A DNA stretch of 41,645 nt from a virus: positions 1 to 41,645 of the IMG/VR virus record IMGVR_UViG_3300020156_000052. The stretch is one strand, 5' to 3'. Made by a program: the position numbers and the translations under genes. Positions within the stretch are counted from its first letter, which is position 1. Each line of letters begins with the position of its first letter. Of this stretch, positions 25,482 through 39,114 are shown piece after piece. Under the pieces are notes generated by a model. The model saw nothing but the letters and a program-made list of their open reading frames with translations, made no database searches and was not told the DNA's origin.

Positions 25482-26423
25482 TCAAGCCACCAGCGTGGCC
25501 AGGATGGCCTTGGCCATCGGGGGCGGGACCGCGTTGCCCACCTGGAGCGTGCGCTGGCCGATGCGGCCTTGCACCGGGTAGTCCGCCGGGAAGCCCTGGA
25601 GGCGGAGCACGTCCGCGGTGGACACGCGCAGGCTCTTGCCTCCCGCCGACCACATCTCGCCGCCCCCGGCCCAGGCCGCCGGTCCAGCCTCGTATGCCTC
25701 GCGCATCGCGCGCCTGGCCCCGTTGCCGAATAGCTCCACTCCGCCGCCGGAGCCCGTACCGCCCGCGGTGACAGACATGCTGGCGCGGTCCGTGAAACCC
25801 CATTCCAGCGCCTCGGCCATCGTGATCTCGCGCTCCACCGTGGGCCCGGGGAGCTGGGCCACCTTGCCGTCCGAGCGGGCCATCAGCACCGCGCGCTTAC
25901 GCCGCTGGGGCACCCCATAGCGCTGGGCGTGCAGCACCCCCGTGGCCACGCTGTATCCGCGTTCGCGGAGCACAGCCGCGCACGCCTTCCAGACCGGGAG
26001 CACCGTGGGGACCTGCTCCCAGGCCAGGTAAGGCGCCCCGCCGGCAAGGGCCAGGCGCAGAGGCTCCAGCACCAGAGCTGTTCGGGGGTCCGAGGTGGCC
26101 TGGCTCATGCGGCTGCGGACCTCGGACGGGGCCACCCCCTGGCCGTACATGGCCACCCCGTCCAGCACGTGCTGGAGATCCTGGCGGCCCTTGCCGTACC
26201 CCGCGATGGAGAAGGTCTGGCACGGCGGGGAGCTGATCTCCACGTCGTACATGCCCGGGAGCGCCGGGCATTCCAGCACGTCCTTGCCCAGCGTTCCCAG
26301 GCCAGCCTCCCGGCGCGTCTCGCGCGCAACGGGCAGGATCTCCCAGGCGTCCACGGTCCAGCCCAGTTCCAGGGCGGCCAAGTCCCACCCACCGATCCCT
26401 GCGAATGTGTCTCTCGCTCTCAT
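25482..26423 (-). CDS. DNA (cytosine-5) methyltransferase, orphan
   Basis: Methylates cytosine in duplex DNA using S-adenosylmethionine. At 313 aa it has the ordered C5-MTase motifs: I DTFAGIGGWD (residues 5-14), IV SSPPCQTFS with catalytic Cys68, VI AWEQVP (Glu136, EQV in place of ENV), VIII QRRKRAVL (173-180) and X LQVGNAVPP. No restriction endonuclease is adjacent, so it probably protects phage DNA or marks it. The ATG lies exactly 6 nt after TATAGT with no ribosome site, so the mRNA should be leaderless. It stands alone between its own promoter and terminator. Confidence 0.93.
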   Translation of the reverse strand: MRARDTFAGIGGWDLAALELGWTVDAWEILPVARETRREAGLGTLGKDVLECPALPGMYDVEISSPPCQTFSIAGYGKGRQDLQHVLDGVAMYGQGVAPSEVRSRMSQATSDPRTALVLEPLRLALAGGAPYLAWEQVPTVLPVWKACAAVLRERGYSVATGVLHAQRYGVPQRRKRAVLMARSDGKVAQLPGPTVEREITMAEALEWGFTDRASMSVTAGGTGSGGGVELFGNGARRAMREAYEAGPAAWAGGGEMWSAGGKSLRVSTADVLRLQGFPADYPVQGRIGQRTLQVGNAVPPPMAKAILATLVA

Positions 26424-29910: not shown

Positions 29911-29947
29911 AGGTAACTCTACCTCAGCTATAACAGAGGTGTCAACC
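29911..29947 (-). promoter_or_regulatory. Promoter-operator region with variant box and 20-nt palindrome
   Basis: The minus strand carries TTGACA (29941-29946), then a CCTCTGTTATAGCTGAGGTA variant of the repeated box, then TAGAGT 18 nt after the -35. A perfect CTGAGGTA-actc-TACCTCAG inverted repeat (29909-29928) overlaps. Either TATAGC or TAGAGT may be the -10. The box may act here as an operator between -35 and -10. Confidence 0.55.
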
Positions 29948-30883: not shown

Positions 30884-31059
30884 TCCGACCCCACCCGACG
30901 AGCAGTGGCCCACGCCTCCACGATCCAATCCGGGGTCTCGTTCAGCACGGCCTCCAGGCCACGCTTGATGTCCTCGTCCGCCAGCGGATTCCAGCAGTCC
31001 GCCCCCTCGCGGAACGTGCGCACTTCGCCCTCGGACACCGCGATCCGGTCCTCGCTCAC
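30880..31059 (-). CDS. Small acidic protein between helicase and nuclease (59 aa)
   Basis: GTG start overlaps the helicase stop, and its own TGA overlaps the nuclease start (both GTGA), so it is fully coupled. Soluble, acidic, helical: VSEDRIAVSEGEVRTFREGA, then LADEDIKRGLEAVLNETPDW. It has a ribosome site GGGAG. Family not recognised; an adaptor between helicase and nuclease is possible but only inferred from position. Confidence 0.6.
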   Translation of the reverse strand: MSEDRIAVSEGEVRTFREGADCWNPLADEDIKRGLEAVLNETPDWIVEAWATARRVGSE

Positions 31060-32813
31060 GCTGCTCCCGTCCTCTCCTTGATCCGGCCCACGGCGGGGTC
31101 CACCCGCCGCGACGCCAGCACCCTATCCATGCGGTCCGACAGTTTCCCGGCCTTGCCTCCGGCCTTGCTGGCCAGGATGTCCCCGTACTGCACGCCGAGC
31201 CGGTCGGCCATCGCGCGCATGTCCTCGCCCGGCACGGCTTTGCGCCACGCCCGGCCCTTGTCCGCCAGCAGGCGGCCCACGTCCCCGCCCAGCTCCAGCG
31301 CCAGGTCCTCGGCGGTGGCCATGGCCAGCTCGAGATCGGGGATGTCTCGAGCGTGGCGCCGCACCTTGCTGTGCAGGATGGAGAACGCCGACCACCCGTC
31401 ACCCTCGCGCAGCAGGAACACGTAGTCCTGCCGCTTGCCGATCGGCAGGAACGGGTGGCCGCCGCTGGTGTACTGCCACACCTTGCTGGAGCGCTCGGTG
31501 AGGGGGTCGAACCGCACCAGCTCGGCCGGGCCGCGGTACTGCGCAGCCTCGGTGTCCAGCTCGGCGCCCAGGTCCCACTCGTCCTCCATGCGGGTGAGCG
31601 AGGTGCCGTCCTCGTCCGCCGGCAGGGGCCGGTCCGACAGGTCGGCCACCGAGCACAGGCTGGTGACGCCGTCGGACACGGTGATCAGCACGGCGTGCTG
31701 CTCGGCCCGCGGCGGGGCGTCCGGGCCGATCCACGGCCGGAGCCCGCGGCCCGCCATCTGTATGAACAGCGGGGCGCTGCGCGTCGGCCTGGCCACCACC
31801 ACCGCCTTCACGCGAGGGCAGTCCCATCCCTCGGTGAGCACCATGCAGTTGGCCACCACCTGGGTGGTGCCGTTGGCCAGCCTGTCCAGCACCGCGTCCC
31901 GCTCGGTCTGCGGCATGGCCCCGGTGACCACCTCCGTCTTGATCCCGGCTGCGTTGAACGCCTCGGCGAACCGGTGGGAGCTGGCCACGTCCGGGCAGAA
32001 GATCACCCCGGACAGGTCGCTGGCCACCTCGTTGTACCGCTCGGCCACCAGCTCGGGGGCCAGGGTGGACGCGGCTAGGGCGGTGGCCACGGCCCGGTCG
32101 GAGTAGTCCCCATCGGCGCCCGGCGCGGTGTTCTGCCTTCCCAGGGAGAAGTCCGGGATGGTCACCCGGAAGGCGGCCACGTCCACGAGGTGGCCGCGCC
32201 GGATGGCCCAGGAGATCCCCCGGGAGAACACCAGGTCCTGCCACACGTGGCCGAGCGCCTGGCCGTCCCCACGGGCTGCGGTAGCTGTCACGCCGAGCAC
32301 GGGGGTGGTTTCTGGGCAGGACCGATTCCAGTACATGACCCCGTCAGCGTGCCGCGCCCCTGTCCTGCACGGGAGGCAGCCAAAGGCACCGTAGTGCTCC
32401 AGGATCTCGCGGTACGTGGGGGCCACCGCGTGGTGCGCCTCGTCCACGATGACCAGGGTCACCCCGGTGATGCGGGCGCGGCGCTCCCGCCTGGCCAGCG
32501 TCTGCACGCTGGCTACGACGATGTCCGCGTCCACCTCGTCCTCGGCGGCCTTCACCACCCCCACCGTCCAGCGGCCGGGCACCACCGCGCGGATGGTGCG
32601 CACGGCCTGGCGCACCAGCTCATCGGTGTGCACCAGCGCCAGGACGCGGCCCAGGTCCCCCTCCAGGTGCCGGGCCGCCCGGGCGGCGAACGTCACCGTC
32701 TTGCCGAGCCCGGTAGCCATCTCGACCAGCAGGCGGGTGGCCGTGGGGTCGGCCGTACGGGCCTCGGCCTCGGCGGCCAGGGCCTGCTCCTGGTAGTCGC
32801 GCAGGATGGTCAC
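31056..32813 (-). CDS. SF2 DEAH-box helicase with zinc insertion (585 aa)
   Basis: ATP-dependent DNA unwinding or translocation. The motifs are in order: I MATGLGKT (about residues 32-39), Ia VHTDELVRQ, II VDEAHH (124-128), III GVTATA, V region TEGWDCP and VI QMAGRGLRP. Between II and III is a Cys/His insert (CLPCRTGARH...C, residues 146-166) likely to bind zinc. The C-terminal 200 residues are helical. GTG 32813 is chosen for its GGAGGACC site and overlap with the micro-ORF stop. Resembles phage DNA-repair/replication helicases (UvsW/RecQ-like in layout). Confidence 0.9.
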   Translation of the reverse strand: MTILRDYQEQALAAEAEARTADPTATRLLVEMATGLGKTVTFAARAARHLEGDLGRVLALVHTDELVRQAVRTIRAVVPGRWTVGVVKAAEDEVDADIVVASVQTLARRERRARITGVTLVIVDEAHHAVAPTYREILEHYGAFGCLPCRTGARHADGVMYWNRSCPETTPVLGVTATAARGDGQALGHVWQDLVFSRGISWAIRRGHLVDVAAFRVTIPDFSLGRQNTAPGADGDYSDRAVATALAASTLAPELVAERYNEVASDLSGVIFCPDVASSHRFAEAFNAAGIKTEVVTGAMPQTERDAVLDRLANGTTQVVANCMVLTEGWDCPRVKAVVVARPTRSAPLFIQMAGRGLRPWIGPDAPPRAEQHAVLITVSDGVTSLCSVADLSDRPLPADEDGTSLTRMEDEWDLGAELDTEAAQYRGPAELVRFDPLTERSSKVWQYTSGGHPFLPIGKRQDYVFLLREGDGWSAFSILHSKVRRHARDIPDLELAMATAEDLALELGGDVGRLLADKGRAWRKAVPGEDMRAMADRLGVQYGDILASKAGGKAGKLSDRMDRVLASRRVDPAVGRIKERTGAA

Positions 32814-32914
32814 GGCAGGTCCTCCAGTACGCCGATGATCAGCAGGGAGATCCCCACTGAGATGAGGAGCAGGGCGACGAACGTGCTCCACCAGGTGCTC
32901 CACCAGTCACGCAA
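32810..32914 (-). CDS. Micro-membrane peptide with TTG start (34 aa)
   Basis: The TTG lies just inside the end of the 128-aa gene and the TGA overlaps the helicase GTG, exactly filling the gap. The peptide has a repeated Trp start (LRDWWSTWWSTF) and one hydrophobic helix (VALLLISVGISLLIIGVL) with an acidic end. TTG and small size lower confidence, but the frame-perfect overlaps argue for coupling or a real peptide. Confidence 0.45.
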   Translation of the reverse strand: MRDWWSTWWSTFVALLLISVGISLLIIGVLEDLP

Positions 32915-33293
32915 GGCGCACCCCCAGGCCCTGCTCGCAGCACGTCCGGCACGCCGTACGCCACGGCGGCACCTCGGCGGAATAGCAGAAGGTGCAGGCG
33001 TCCGTGGCCGACCCGTGCATCAAGTAGAGGGCGCCGGGCAGGACCTGGCCCGCCGGCAGGATCGGCTGGCCGCCGACCCACAGTCCCTGTTCCACCATCA
33101 GCACCAGCGGAATGCGCCATCCGGGCACCATCCACGTGGCGGGCACGTACTCCCGGATCTCGGTGGGGTACGGGATCAGGGAGCTGGGCTCCACCCAGGC
33201 CACGCGAGCGGGCTCTGGGGCGTACTTGTACGGGCGGGCGGGCGCGTCCCGCCACAGGCCGTCCATCGGCCCGCCGACAAACAGGCGTCTCAC
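32907..33293 (-). CDS. Small phage protein with GGPMDG motif and Cys pairs (128 aa)
   Basis: Begins VRRLFVGGPMDGLWRDAP; the G-G-P-M-D-G start recurs in the gene at 38860. The middle is beta-rich and the C-terminus has CTFCYSAEV and CRTCC pairs suited to zinc binding. GTG start with GAGGAGG upstream, overlapping the preceding stop. GGP-x-DG proteins are common small actinophage proteins of unknown function. Confidence 0.68.
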   Translation of the reverse strand: MRRLFVGGPMDGLWRDAPARPYKYAPEPARVAWVEPSSLIPYPTEIREYVPATWMVPGWRIPLVLMVEQGLWVGGQPILPAGQVLPGALYLMHGSATDACTFCYSAEVPPWRTACRTCCEQGLGVRLA

Positions 33294-33502
33294 CGCAGCC
33301 TCCTCATGGTGGGTGTGCCGACGTGCCAGCCCTTGCAGGCCGGGCACGGGTAGACGTTCAGGGACTCGGGGGCGGCCCCGAGCGCGATGCGGCGCTCCAT
33401 GGCCTCCTGCGCGTAGGGGCGCTGGGTGTATCTGATCTTGCCCACGCACCCGCGCCGGGGGTTGAACCTCCCGCGGCCATAGCCGTTGGCGCCGCTGGCC
33501 AT
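33290..33502 (-). CDS. Small zinc-ribbon-like protein (70 aa)
   Basis: Residues YPCPACKGWHVG near the C-terminus match a common phage pattern (Y-x-C-P-x-C-x-x-W-H). The rest is basic (RGRFNPRRGCVGKIRYTQRP) and helical. ATG with GGGAGCGGG upstream; the start and end overlap neighbouring genes by 1-4 nt. Probably binds nucleic acid; function unknown. Confidence 0.72.
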   Translation of the reverse strand: MASGANGYGRGRFNPRRGCVGKIRYTQRPYAQEAMERRIALGAAPESLNVYPCPACKGWHVGTPTMRRLR

Positions 33503-35811: not shown

Positions 35812-35841
35812 CAGGAGCCCCGGCGTCCACCGGGGCTCCTG
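35812..35841. terminator. Terminator after the SF1 helicase gene
   Basis: 12-bp perfect stem (CAGGAGCCCCGG/CCGGGGCTCCTG) with a 6-nt loop, between the helicase stop and the primase ATG on the same strand. No U-run, so partial read-through is possible. Confidence 0.72.
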
Positions 35842-35876: not shown

Positions 35877-38525
35877 ATGGGGGATTCCATGCACAGCCCG
35901 GACATTGCCCGCGCCCTGGAGATCGCGCACCACCTGGTGGATCTCGGGGTGCCTGTGTTCCCGGCCCCGCCCAACAGCAGCAAGCCCGGCGAGTTCCTGT
36001 ATCCGGGCATGTGGCCGGAGTACCGCCCCAACCACAGTGCGGTGGACCGCTGGCAGCCCGGGTGGGCGCTGGCCATGGTCACCGGGGTGGTGTTCGACGT
36101 GCTCGACATCGACCCCCGCAACGGCGGGATGGACGGGCTGTCCGAGCTGCACCGGGCGCTCGGTGACCTCCCGGAGCTGTACGGGGAGGCGGAGACCCCG
36201 TCCGCCGGCCGACACCTGCTGATCGCCCGCACCCGTCTGGCCAAGGGCAAGCCCGCCCAGGGGATCGATCTCCAGGCTGGCGACGATCGCGGCCAGGGGA
36301 GGGGGTTCGTGTTCATCGCGCCCACCGTGCGGGTGAGCCGGTACGGGCCCCGTAAGGGTGAGCCGGTCATGTACCGGTGGACGCAGGAGCCCATCGGCGC
36401 GCCCGGCTCGGCGCCGGACCCCACCCTGGCCTCACTGGTGGACCTGATCGGCGCCGCGCGGCCTCTCCGGCGCGCCCCGGCCGCGGCCCGCCCGGTGGAC
36501 GAGGAGGAGGACCCGTTCGACTCGGCGGGTTCGGTGTGGACCCCGGCGGAGGCGGCCAGGGTGATGGACCAGCAGGTGCTGGCCGTGGAGCAGGCCAGGG
36601 AGGGCGAGATCAACAGCACGCTCGGCGGGGCGGCCAGGGTGCTCGGCAGGTTCGTGGCCGGGGGCCACCTGTCCGAGGAGTCCGCCACCGAGCTGTTGCT
36701 GGGCGCCCTGGAGCGCGGCGGGGTCCACGACGACCGGTGGAACGTCGCCAACGGCAAGAGCTGGACGGCGGCCACGGTGATCGGGGCCGGGCTCGCCCGC
36801 GGCGCCGAGGAACCGTGGACTGTCATGCAGGAGGCCCCGGCCCGGCAGACGTACACCACACCCGCGGACTGCCCGGACTGCACGCATGAGCAGGCGTGCC
36901 AGCGGCACTACGCGGGCGCGCCCGTGAGCGCCCCGCCGGCCGCCACGGTGCCGGGGGTGTTCCCGCCGCTGGCCATCGGGTCGGCCGCGGAGATGGCCTA
37001 CTGGTGCCAGAGCAACCTCGGGTCCGGCACCACCTCGGGATTCTTCCGCCGCGGCGGGACGATCGTGCACACCGCCAGGGTGGGGGAGATCGGCTACGTC
37101 CCGCCCGCGGACGACCGGGACGACAACGGCCCGGCGCAGGTGCTCCCGGTGACCGCGGGCACGCTGGCGGCCAAGGTGCAGTACGGGCACCGGTGCTACA
37201 AGATCGTCAAGGACAAGGAGAGCAAGGAGGAGCGGGAGGTGCCCGCCCTGTTCCCGCGGCAGGCCGCCGAGGTGGCCGTGAACGCCCCGGAGGCCCTGCC
37301 CATGCTCCGGCCGCTGCGCGGGATCACCCTCACCCCGATGGTGCGCGCGGACGGCACCATCCTCACCGCGCCGGGGTACGACGAGGCCAGCGGGTTCCTG
37401 TACCTGCCGGACCGTGGCGTGCGCGCCCTGGCCGTCCCGGAGGACCCCACCGCCGGGGACGTGCAGGCGGCCCTCGGCCTGCTGGACGAGATGCTGGCGG
37501 GCTTCCCGTGGGTGGACAAGCAGGACCGGGCCAACTACCTCGGCCTGTTGCTGACCCCGCTCCTGCGCGAGGTGGCGCCGCCCACCTACAAGCTGTTCGG
37601 GATCACCGCTCACCAGCCCGGCTCCGGCAAGACCCTGCTGGCGGACATCGTGCGGCTGGTGCACGGCGGGGTGCTGCGCTCCGAGATGCCGGACGAGGAG
37701 GCCGAGGTGCGCAAGATGACCACCACCACTCTGGCCACCACCAGCGCCCCGGTGATCCACGTGGACAACGTGACGGGGATCCTGCGCTCCAGCGCCCTGG
37801 CCGGTCTGCTGACGGCCAGGGGCGAGGTGTCGGAGCGGGAGCTGGGCACCAGCCGCAACCTGACGTTCACCAACGACCGGACGTGGGTGGTGACCGGCAA
37901 CAACATGGCGCTGGGCGGAGACCTGGTGCGCCGGACCATCACCATCATGATCGACCCGAACGTGGCCACCCCGGAGGCCAGGGAGTTCGCCATCCGCGAC
38001 CTTCCCGCGTGGGTGGAGGCGCACCGCAGCGAGATCCTGCGGGCGCTGCTGGTGCTCATCCGCTCCTGGTGGACCGCGGGGGCCGCGCCGGCCGACCGCG
38101 CGCAGAGCGACTCGTTCGCCCGCTGGGAGGCCGTGGTGGACGGCATCCTGCGCGCGGCCGGGGTGGAGGGGTTCGACCAGGCGAGCGGCGCCCGGGCTGC
38201 GCGGGGCGGGGACGACGACGGGCTGCTGGCCGTGCTGGAGCACGCCTTCAGGGTGATGGGCGAGAACACGTGGACCGCGGCGGAGCTGATCGACCACGTG
38301 CCCGCGGGCGAGTTCGTGGGCGAGTCACGGGAGTGGCTGCCCGCCTCCGTCCTGGACAAGCTGGCCCGCTCGGAGGCCGGGGGGCGCAAGTCGTTCGGGC
38401 GGTGGCTGCTGAACCGGATCGGCCGCTGGGTGCGCTCCGAGGACGGGGGCGCTTACGTGCTCCGGGAGGCGGGCAAGCACAAGCACTCCAAGGTGGCCCT
38501 GTGGAGGGTGGAGCGCAAGAGCTGA
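35877..38525 (+). CDS. Primase-polymerase (AEP) fused to an ATPase: replication initiator (882 aa)
   Basis: N-terminal archaeo-eukaryotic primase domain: FPAPPNSSKPGEF, acidic VLDIDPRNGG (Asp77, Asp79) and TPSAGRHLL (His113). A helical middle region with a Cys/His cluster (CPDCTHEQACQRH, near residue 335) follows. The C-terminal P-loop ATPase has HQPGSGKTLL (Walker A near residue 582), HVDNV as Walker B strand and a TNDRTWVVTGNN sensor, then a helical DNA-binding end. This resembles plasmid-type primase/helicase initiators more than a phage DnaB system. ATG with CGGAGGAT upstream. The inverted repeat after it is a candidate origin. Confidence 0.85.
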   Translation: MGDSMHSPDIARALEIAHHLVDLGVPVFPAPPNSSKPGEFLYPGMWPEYRPNHSAVDRWQPGWALAMVTGVVFDVLDIDPRNGGMDGLSELHRALGDLPELYGEAETPSAGRHLLIARTRLAKGKPAQGIDLQAGDDRGQGRGFVFIAPTVRVSRYGPRKGEPVMYRWTQEPIGAPGSAPDPTLASLVDLIGAARPLRRAPAAARPVDEEEDPFDSAGSVWTPAEAARVMDQQVLAVEQAREGEINSTLGGAARVLGRFVAGGHLSEESATELLLGALERGGVHDDRWNVANGKSWTAATVIGAGLARGAEEPWTVMQEAPARQTYTTPADCPDCTHEQACQRHYAGAPVSAPPAATVPGVFPPLAIGSAAEMAYWCQSNLGSGTTSGFFRRGGTIVHTARVGEIGYVPPADDRDDNGPAQVLPVTAGTLAAKVQYGHRCYKIVKDKESKEEREVPALFPRQAAEVAVNAPEALPMLRPLRGITLTPMVRADGTILTAPGYDEASGFLYLPDRGVRALAVPEDPTAGDVQAALGLLDEMLAGFPWVDKQDRANYLGLLLTPLLREVAPPTYKLFGITAHQPGSGKTLLADIVRLVHGGVLRSEMPDEEAEVRKMTTTTLATTSAPVIHVDNVTGILRSSALAGLLTARGEVSERELGTSRNLTFTNDRTWVVTGNNMALGGDLVRRTITIMIDPNVATPEAREFAIRDLPAWVEAHRSEILRALLVLIRSWWTAGAAPADRAQSDSFARWEAVVDGILRAAGVEGFDQASGARAARGGDDDGLLAVLEHAFRVMGENTWTAAELIDHVPAGEFVGESREWLPASVLDKLARSEAGGRKSFGRWLLNRIGRWVRSEDGGAYVLREAGKHKHSKVALWRVERKS

Positions 38526-38553
38526 TCTAGATCACCACCGGATCACCACCATG
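38523..38553. repeat. Palindrome and short direct repeats at the primase stop
   Basis: TGATCTAGATCA (38523-38534) is a perfect 12-bp palindrome overlapping the stop codon. GATCACCACC occurs twice in tandem (38531-38540 and 38542-38551). They resemble small iterons beside the inverted repeat. Confidence 0.5.
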
Positions 38554-38554
38554 A

Positions 38555-38585
38555 CGCCTGCGGGGTATACCCCGCAGGCGTTTCT
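38555..38585 (+). terminator. Terminator after the primase gene
   Basis: CGCCTGCGGGG-TATA-CCCCGCAGGCG is a perfect 11-bp stem with a 4-nt loop, followed by TTTCT, so it is a good intrinsic terminator. It shares the GCGGGG element with the flanking repeats. Confidence 0.8.
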
Positions 38586-38777
38586 AAACCCCGCAAGTGT
38601 TTGCCCAGGTCAGAGGCCACATTGCGGGGTTTGCGGGGTTTGGGGTCACACCTCCGCGCGGGCGACCATTTCCTATTAAATAGGTGGGGTATATACACTC
38701 CTGTGTCGGTCTCTACAGCTAAACCCCGCAAACCCCGCAGTATGGCCCCTGACCTGGGAGAACGCTTGCGGGGTTTA
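38585..38777. repeat. Large imperfect inverted repeat around an AT-rich core: candidate replication origin
   Basis: The left arm at 38585-38641 and right arm at 38721-38777 (57 nt each) are inverted copies matching at 51 of 57 positions. Each arm contains three copies of GCGGGGTTT or its complement. The 79-nt centre is the most AT-rich stretch nearby and holds CCTATTAAATAGG (a 13-nt palindrome) and TATATA. It fills the 334-nt gene-free gap between the primase gene and 38860. No gene is supported here. Confidence 0.65.
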
Positions 38778-38844
38778 GGAATGGGCTACCGCCGCCCTGC
38801 ACCTGGCCGGAGGAGAAAGAGCGGTGGTATCCGGGATTGGGGGG

Positions 38845-38859
38845 TGGTATCGTGGTGGC
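38845..38859 (+). promoter_or_regulatory. Extended -10 promoter variant for a leaderless gene
   Basis: TG-G-TATCGT (38845-38853) lies exactly 6 nt before the ATG at 38860, copying the spacing of the TATAGT boxes. A -35 is not obvious. Confidence 0.6.
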
Positions 38860-39114
38860 ATGACTCCACGATCCGCTCCCGCCCCCTTCATCGGTGGCCC
38901 GATGGACGGGAAGACCTACCATCCCGTGTCGAAATGGCCCATGTATCTGACGGACGCCGGGCAGACCATGCCCACCGCGGCCGGGGATCGGCTGTTTACA
39001 ACGCTCTCGTTCGCCCGCCCCTTGAGGGCGGATGCCAAGTTCCGTACGGGGTACGTCCGGCGCTGGCGTTCCGGCGTCCGCGTGTACGTGCACAGCTCGG
39101 TGGACCAGGCATGA
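38860..39114 (+). CDS. Small protein with GGPMDG motif, leaderless gene (84 aa)
   Basis: MTPRSAPAPFIGGPMDGKTY shares F-x-GGPMDG with the gene at 32907-33293. The remainder is beta-rich and basic (RRWRSGVRVYVHSS). Leaderless: ATG 6 nt after TATCGT, no ribosome site. Function unknown. Stop overlaps the next ATG (ATGA). Confidence 0.68.
   Translation: MTPRSAPAPFIGGPMDGKTYHPVSKWPMYLTDAGQTMPTAAGDRLFTTLSFARPLRADAKFRTGYVRRWRSGVRVYVHSSVDQA

Follow-up and report, generated by a model that had tools for sequence, protein, structure and literature searches.

Opposed iteron arms directly downstream of a fused primase-helicase gene form a probable replication origin in a tailed phage

Directly 3' of the gene for a fused primase-helicase initiator in the virus record IMGVR_UViG_3300020156_000052 (IMG/VR; the window, that is the whole stretch of 41,645 nt analysed here) lies a long inverted repeat, which a first reading of the letters had proposed as a replication origin. 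The parts of this locus are collected in Table 1. The original prediction placed the arms at 38585-38641 and 38721-38777; their match at 51 of 57 positions is confirmed, and they can be lengthened to 61 nt each, with 54 positions matching. This inverted repeat scores 113 bits. When the whole window was Markov-shuffled 20 times, the best one per shuffle reached at most 50 bits, and the next-best one anywhere in the window has at most 46 bits. Three repeat units per arm had been reported, and GCGGGGTTT indeed occurs six times in the record, always at this locus (plus strand: 38624, 38633 and 38768; minus strand: 38586, 38721 and 38730). Read from the outside to the inside, each arm holds one iteron, the element CAGGTCAG, and two tandem iterons with a 9-nt period that point the other way. 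The 79-nt core between the arms is AT-rich as described (46% A+T versus 29% in the record), and the 40-mer with the highest A+T content in the record begins inside it, at 38668. The present analysis establishes this anatomy. A dyad in the core, CCTATTAAATAGG, is present as well, but a stem of such size is expected by chance (p ~0.28) in a core of this kind, and we dropped it as a meaningful element. Across related loci, core stems show only a modest excess over shuffles.

What occupies the DNA between the initiator stop and the arms? Two tandem copies of GATCACCACC (38530-38539 and 38541-38550), spaced 11 nt apart, are found there as reported; conservation of this pair was not seen in the relatives read. 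They are followed by a palindrome that had been given as 12 bp and is in fact perfect over 28 bp (ACGCCTGCGGGGTATACCCCGCAGGCGT); no perfect palindrome in the record is longer. Folded as RNA it forms a strong hairpin, and its stem holds the iteron-like TGCGGGGTA and TACCCCGCA. Hairpins also stand directly after the initiator stop in the related loci L006 and L011; because they do so in the Streptomyces plasmid pWTY27 and in L011, the palindrome is best read as the probable terminator of the initiator transcript. Given the TGCGGGGTA in its stem, it could alternatively be an extra binding site of the iteron type. Could the locus as a whole then act in RNA, its hairpins being a bidirectional terminator or a processing signal between the initiator and the downstream genes? 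The strength of the hairpin (z -5.1) and its counterparts in L006 and L011 fit such a role. We nevertheless regard it as very improbable, as it would cover 38554-38581 and leave aside the 9-nt iterons, the long arms with their AT-rich core and the genetics of pWTY27 (see below); moreover, a terminator consensus scan returned nothing at the locus and detected no T run there.

The open reading frame (ORF) of the initiator, as called by program, opens at a GTG at 35841, and the ATG at 35877 sits after GGAGGA. Residues 29-193 match PF09250 (E 4.8e-11), which marks an AEP primase-polymerase (Prim-Pol) domain. The helicase half was not recognised in a Pfam search, and a sequence-profile search of the PDB returned weak P-loop matches only, so that structure prediction was needed. 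The AlphaFold2 (AF2) model of residues 420-894 has a pLDDT of 90.8, and residues 15-371 of the model match the folds of vaccinia D5 (8apl, Z 13.2) and of the primase-helicase of SaPI5, a Staphylococcus aureus pathogenicity island (SaPI) (7ola, Z 12.9); African swine fever virus (ASFV) PrimPol and the NrS-1 protein (6lrb, Z 11.9) are further matches. These matches establish a D5-type fold for the model, and the helicase half is accordingly predicted to be a D5-type hexameric helicase. The last 100 residues have the predicted order H-H-H-H-E-E-E, that of a winged helix. Their fold matches to winged-helix proteins such as Zur/FurB, MarR, PadR and TFE are weak (Z 4-5), and Foldseek with this domain alone gave no significant match. 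By analogy with Cch2 and SaPI Rep (PMC7581432), this C-terminal domain is likely the DNA-binding reader of the iterons.

The initiator is homologous to an experimentally studied replication protein. Its helicase half aligns with RepA of pWTY27 in tblastn (35% over residues 492-863, E 2e-43); the two proteins agree at 33% in the alignment and have the Walker A motif GSGK and other invariant residues in common. No significant similarity to the plasmid's second protein, RepB, was detected in the initiator (E 0.11), though PF09250 is present in the fused protein. For pWTY27, a theta plasmid, deletion of repA, of repB or of a 300-bp non-coding sequence ended replication in S. lividans, and the 300-bp sequence restored replication while a 149-bp part of it did not (PMC3583192). 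The RepA footprint (405-509) coincides with IR2, an inverted repeat whose iterons point both ways, and a bidirectional mode of replication was inferred (PMC3583192). The iteron-bearing non-coding sequence (321-620) lies directly 3' of repA, and its parts come in the same order as those of the window. Judged by initiator homology, the locus would belong with the pWTY27 type of origin.

Is this layout a general companion of such initiators? A pattern scan of viral contigs built from a single protein found no relative, and an alignment of six initiators was therefore needed; it yielded 48 viral and 42 genome loci. Comparison of the 338-nt region with phage records by blastn gave no match, as is expected if iterons turn over. 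Within 350 nt after the initiator stop (98 loci), the best inverted repeat has a median score of 20, compared to 10 in 803 control tiles from the same loci, and it exceeds the 95th percentile of the controls in 71 of the 98. Among 82 non-redundant loci, 51, 49, 45, 36 and 38 have 7-mers repeated at spacings of 8, 9, 10, 11 and 12 nt, respectively; the control tiles predict 1.8, 9.9, 1.8, 3.0 and 9.4. Inverted pairs of CCCGCAA (32/82), CCCCGCA (31/82), CAAACCC (19/82) and AACCCCG (16/82), all of them parts of GCGGGGTTTGC, have an expectation of 0.0, and inverted pairs of AGG(T/C)CAG are found in 13 of the 82 loci, pWTY27 among them. In all 29 cases that could be measured, the core is AT-richer than its own locus. 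The longest array among the relatives read is that of L017 (5347-5760), where numerous GGTAGACTT iterons of either orientation are spread over ~400 nt after the initiator stop.

The association of layout and initiator is thus recurrent, and it holds across phages, plasmids and genome contigs whatever gene lies next. This bears on the possibility that the arms are operators, through which the initiator or a phage repressor would control the initiator gene or the genes from 38860 onward while replication starts elsewhere. Iteron-bound initiators often double as transcription regulators, and the locus is intergenic, ahead of the ORF at 38860. Indifference to the next gene is not what operators would lead one to expect, however, nor is a position 3' rather than 5' of the initiator gene; a promoter consensus scan, of sigma-70-type sites only, found nothing at the locus, and the counterpart in pWTY27 is needed for replication (PMC3583192). 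Control of transcription as the sole role of the arms therefore appears very improbable.

The layout can also be approached from DNA alone. We searched 2.9 million viral contigs for the pattern GCGGGGTTTGCGGGGTTT-N60-90-AAACCCCGC, using no protein information, and five contigs matched; variants with a core of 30-60 or 91-121 nt matched none. In three of the five (L101, L102 and L103) the match lies ~105, 8 and 8 nt past the stop of an initiator homologue (HMM, that is hidden Markov model, E 5e-91, 2e-106 and 8e-98) that is 27-29% identical to the protein of the window. The other two, L104 (2967-3060) and L105 (4378-4470), have the same double-iteron inverted pair and a common core motif (GCGAG...GGGGTTTTAGGGAAA), the pair of L105 having AbiE-like genes and the gene of a TOTE-type primase/helicase nearby.

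Iteron sequence and initiator relatedness do not run in parallel. The identical double iteron is found in L073, L076, L078, L085, L101, L103 and L104, and those of L073, L076 and L085 (contigs of Saccharopolyspora, Amycolatopsis and Longimycelium) accompany far more distant initiators. The nearest phages, L011-L013, have initiators 58-61% identical to that of the window and syntenic helicase and endonuclease VII genes; their iterons differ (GTGACAAGT, GGGGGGAGT and others) and the architecture is unchanged. Throughout the family the iterons resemble variations on GCGGGGTTT. A swap of C-terminal domains between the window and other users of GCGGGGTTT is not supported by the identities: the domain of the window is 47-50% identical to those of L011-L013, with their other iterons, and 22-27% to those of L073, L076 and L080. 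The last predicted helix has N or Q in all loci with GCAGGGA iterons and K in most users of GCGGGG; given the exceptions L036, L044, L048 and L088 and the shared ancestry, this pairing is only a lead. The same comparisons bear on another origin of the arms, either as the inverted ends of a small mobile element or as a remnant of an inverted duplication. Inverted arms around a short core do look like a miniature inverted-repeat transposable element (MITE), yet the record holds no further copy, the iterons and AGGTCAG recur at the same place beside the initiator in relatives while the surrounding DNA does not, and in L011-L013 the arms at the syntenic position differ in sequence. We dropped the MITE reading, whose probability we consider close to negligible.

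Taken together, 38554-38781, with an essential part of ~38581-38781, is very likely the replication origin of the phage. The proposal of an origin, possibly of plasmid type, thereby gains support from the homology to pWTY27 RepA, the layout seen across the family and the DNA-only search. How might it work? The initiator would be self-loading, combining a primase-polymerase, a D5-type hexameric helicase and a winged-helix-like C-terminal domain. The C-terminal domains would bind the GCGGGGTTT iterons of the two opposed arms, and two helicase hexamers would assemble there, face to face or back to back. The AT-rich core would then melt, the helicases would part, and the Prim-Pol domain would lay primers for bidirectional theta replication.

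Several observations weigh against an origin at this site or against parts of this scheme. The control tiles are mostly coding, and terminators in non-coding DNA could explain part of the inverted-repeat enrichment; the iteron-specific tests are free of this weakness, and the general inverted-repeat test is the weaker of the two kinds. The layout is absent from some relatives, for example L005, L014, L015, L054 and L059, and no recognisable initiator homologue is found on the records of L104 and L105, two of the five DNA-only matches. The loci share ancestry, so the counts represent non-independent events. The fold matches behind the winged-helix assignment are weak. Finally, GC skew, a check proposed along with the original prediction, has no turning point at the locus, a result that neither supports nor refutes an origin.

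Beyond this phage, we find it likely that the locus represents a general class of origins used by phages, by plasmids and by chromosomal elements, in Actinobacteria and others. In this class, a D5-type primase-helicase initiator would be followed directly on its 3' side by opposed sets of 8-12-nt iterons that flank an AT-rich core. The architecture would be kept while the iterons drift, as through the versions GCGGGGTTT, GCGGGTTT, GCGGGGA, GCAGGGA, GTGGGAAC and more. New here are the phage member with its fused initiator, the iteron and the AGGTCAG element as common features, and how broad the class is. If this holds true, the origin could be located by sequence in a large set of phages and plasmids with uncharacterised replication, and a plasmid tested by experiment, pWTY27, would be linked to phage origins. 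Dozens of natural initiator-iteron pairs would make the recognition code of the C-terminal domain readable and would allow direct tests of iteron recognition, of incompatibility and of how origins evolve. The module could also be a compact theta replicon for actinobacterial vectors.

Table 1. Parts of the initiator gene and of the putative origin (window coordinates; a dot indicates no strand).
Feature	Position	Strand	Basis
Initiator: AEP Prim-Pol domain, D5-type AAA+ helicase and C-terminal winged-helix-like domain, fused (predicted)	35877..38525	+	profile, predicted structure
C-terminal domain of initiator, likely iteron reader	38211..38522	+	AF2 pLDDT 88.6
Perfect palindrome; probable initiator-gene terminator or extra head-to-head iteron pair	38554..38581	.	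RNA hairpin z -5.1
Left arm of inverted repeat	38581..38641	.	self-comparison and shuffles
Outer iteron, left (AAACCCCGC)	38586..38594	-	motif count
Second conserved element, left (CAGGTCAG)	38606..38613	+	AGG(T/C)CAG inverted pairs in relatives
Two inner tandem iterons, left (GCGGGGTTTGCGGGGTTT)	38624..38641	+	identical doubles in other loci
Core, AT-richest part of record; proposed melting region	38642..38720	.	base composition
Right arm of inverted repeat	38721..38781	.	self-comparison and shuffles
Two inner tandem iterons, right (AAACCCCGCAAACCCCGC)	38721..38738	-	motif count
Second conserved element, right (CTGACCTG)	38749..38756	-	AGG(T/C)CAG inverted pairs in relatives
Outer iteron, right (GCGGGGTTT)	38768..38776	+	motif count

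The record around the locus is that of a tailed phage, with genes for terminase, portal, head protease, major head protein (capsid), tail protein and endolysin, as well as a methyltransferase, helicases, an exonuclease and endonuclease VII. Among the PHROG matches of the scanned ORFs there is no integrase and no separate DNA polymerase; because none of the latter was recognised, the Prim-Pol domain or a host polymerase may copy the phage genome. Minus-strand genes at 31056-33449 and 25482-26423, between the structural and the replication genes, include a superfamily 2 (SF2)-type helicase and a DNA methyltransferase. Dispersed copies, at least 8 in number, exist of a partly palindromic element of ~22 nt (consensus TACGTCGACTATAGCAGACGTA); they seem to lie close to gene boundaries in the right half (21782, 24387, 25355, 26431, 27284, 34488, 34536 on the minus strand and 39568 on the minus strand, with a weaker copy at 29928). 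It may be a series of phage promoters or operators, similar to stoperators.

How does the locus compare to known systems? The origin of phage-inducible chromosomal islands (PICIs) consists of two iteron sets around an AT-rich region and lies immediately 3' of the initiator, a layout stated to exist in no bacterial replicon except PICIs (PMC6092414). The phage locus has the same layout, which contradicts this exclusivity, and it shares the D5-type helicase fold with SaPI5. In contrast, the iterons of SaPIs are unrelated to those of the phage, and the profile search detected no sequence-level match of the initiator to SaPI Rep. PICIs and SaPIs are helper-dependent satellites without a full set of structural genes (PMC6092414, PMC7581432); the record has its own and is therefore not a PICI. 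The C-terminal domains of SaPI Rep and Cch2 bind iterons directly downstream of their own gene, with two hexamers in the case of SaPI (PMC7581432). Cch2 does so in the staphylococcal cassette chromosome mec (SCCmec), whose putative origin, like that of the phage, has repeats directly downstream of a D5-type helicase (PMC7581432). Unlike the phage, SCCmec has three copies of a 5-nt iteron, and its primase is a separate A-family polymerase/MP pair (PMC7581432). Phage NrS-1 likewise encodes a protein that joins Prim-Pol to an AAA+ helicase, and the C-terminal fold match to it has a Z of 11.9, but NrS-1 is a deep-sea phage of distant sequence.

The likeness to pWTY27 extends to the details. Plasmid and phage both have a homologous helicase-type initiator with a Prim-Pol partner and, in the non-coding DNA 3' of it, two-way iterons within long inverted repeats around an AT-richer core. 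Both present an outer iteron, AGGTCAG, two inner iterons and the core, followed by the mirror image. They differ in that primase-polymerase and helicase are two genes in pWTY27 and one fused gene in the phage, in the iteron (GTGGGAAC versus GCGGGGTTT), in the orientation of AGGTCAG, which is flipped in pWTY27 relative to the phage, and in the length of the core, 38 nt versus 79 nt. One replicon is a plasmid, the other a phage genome.
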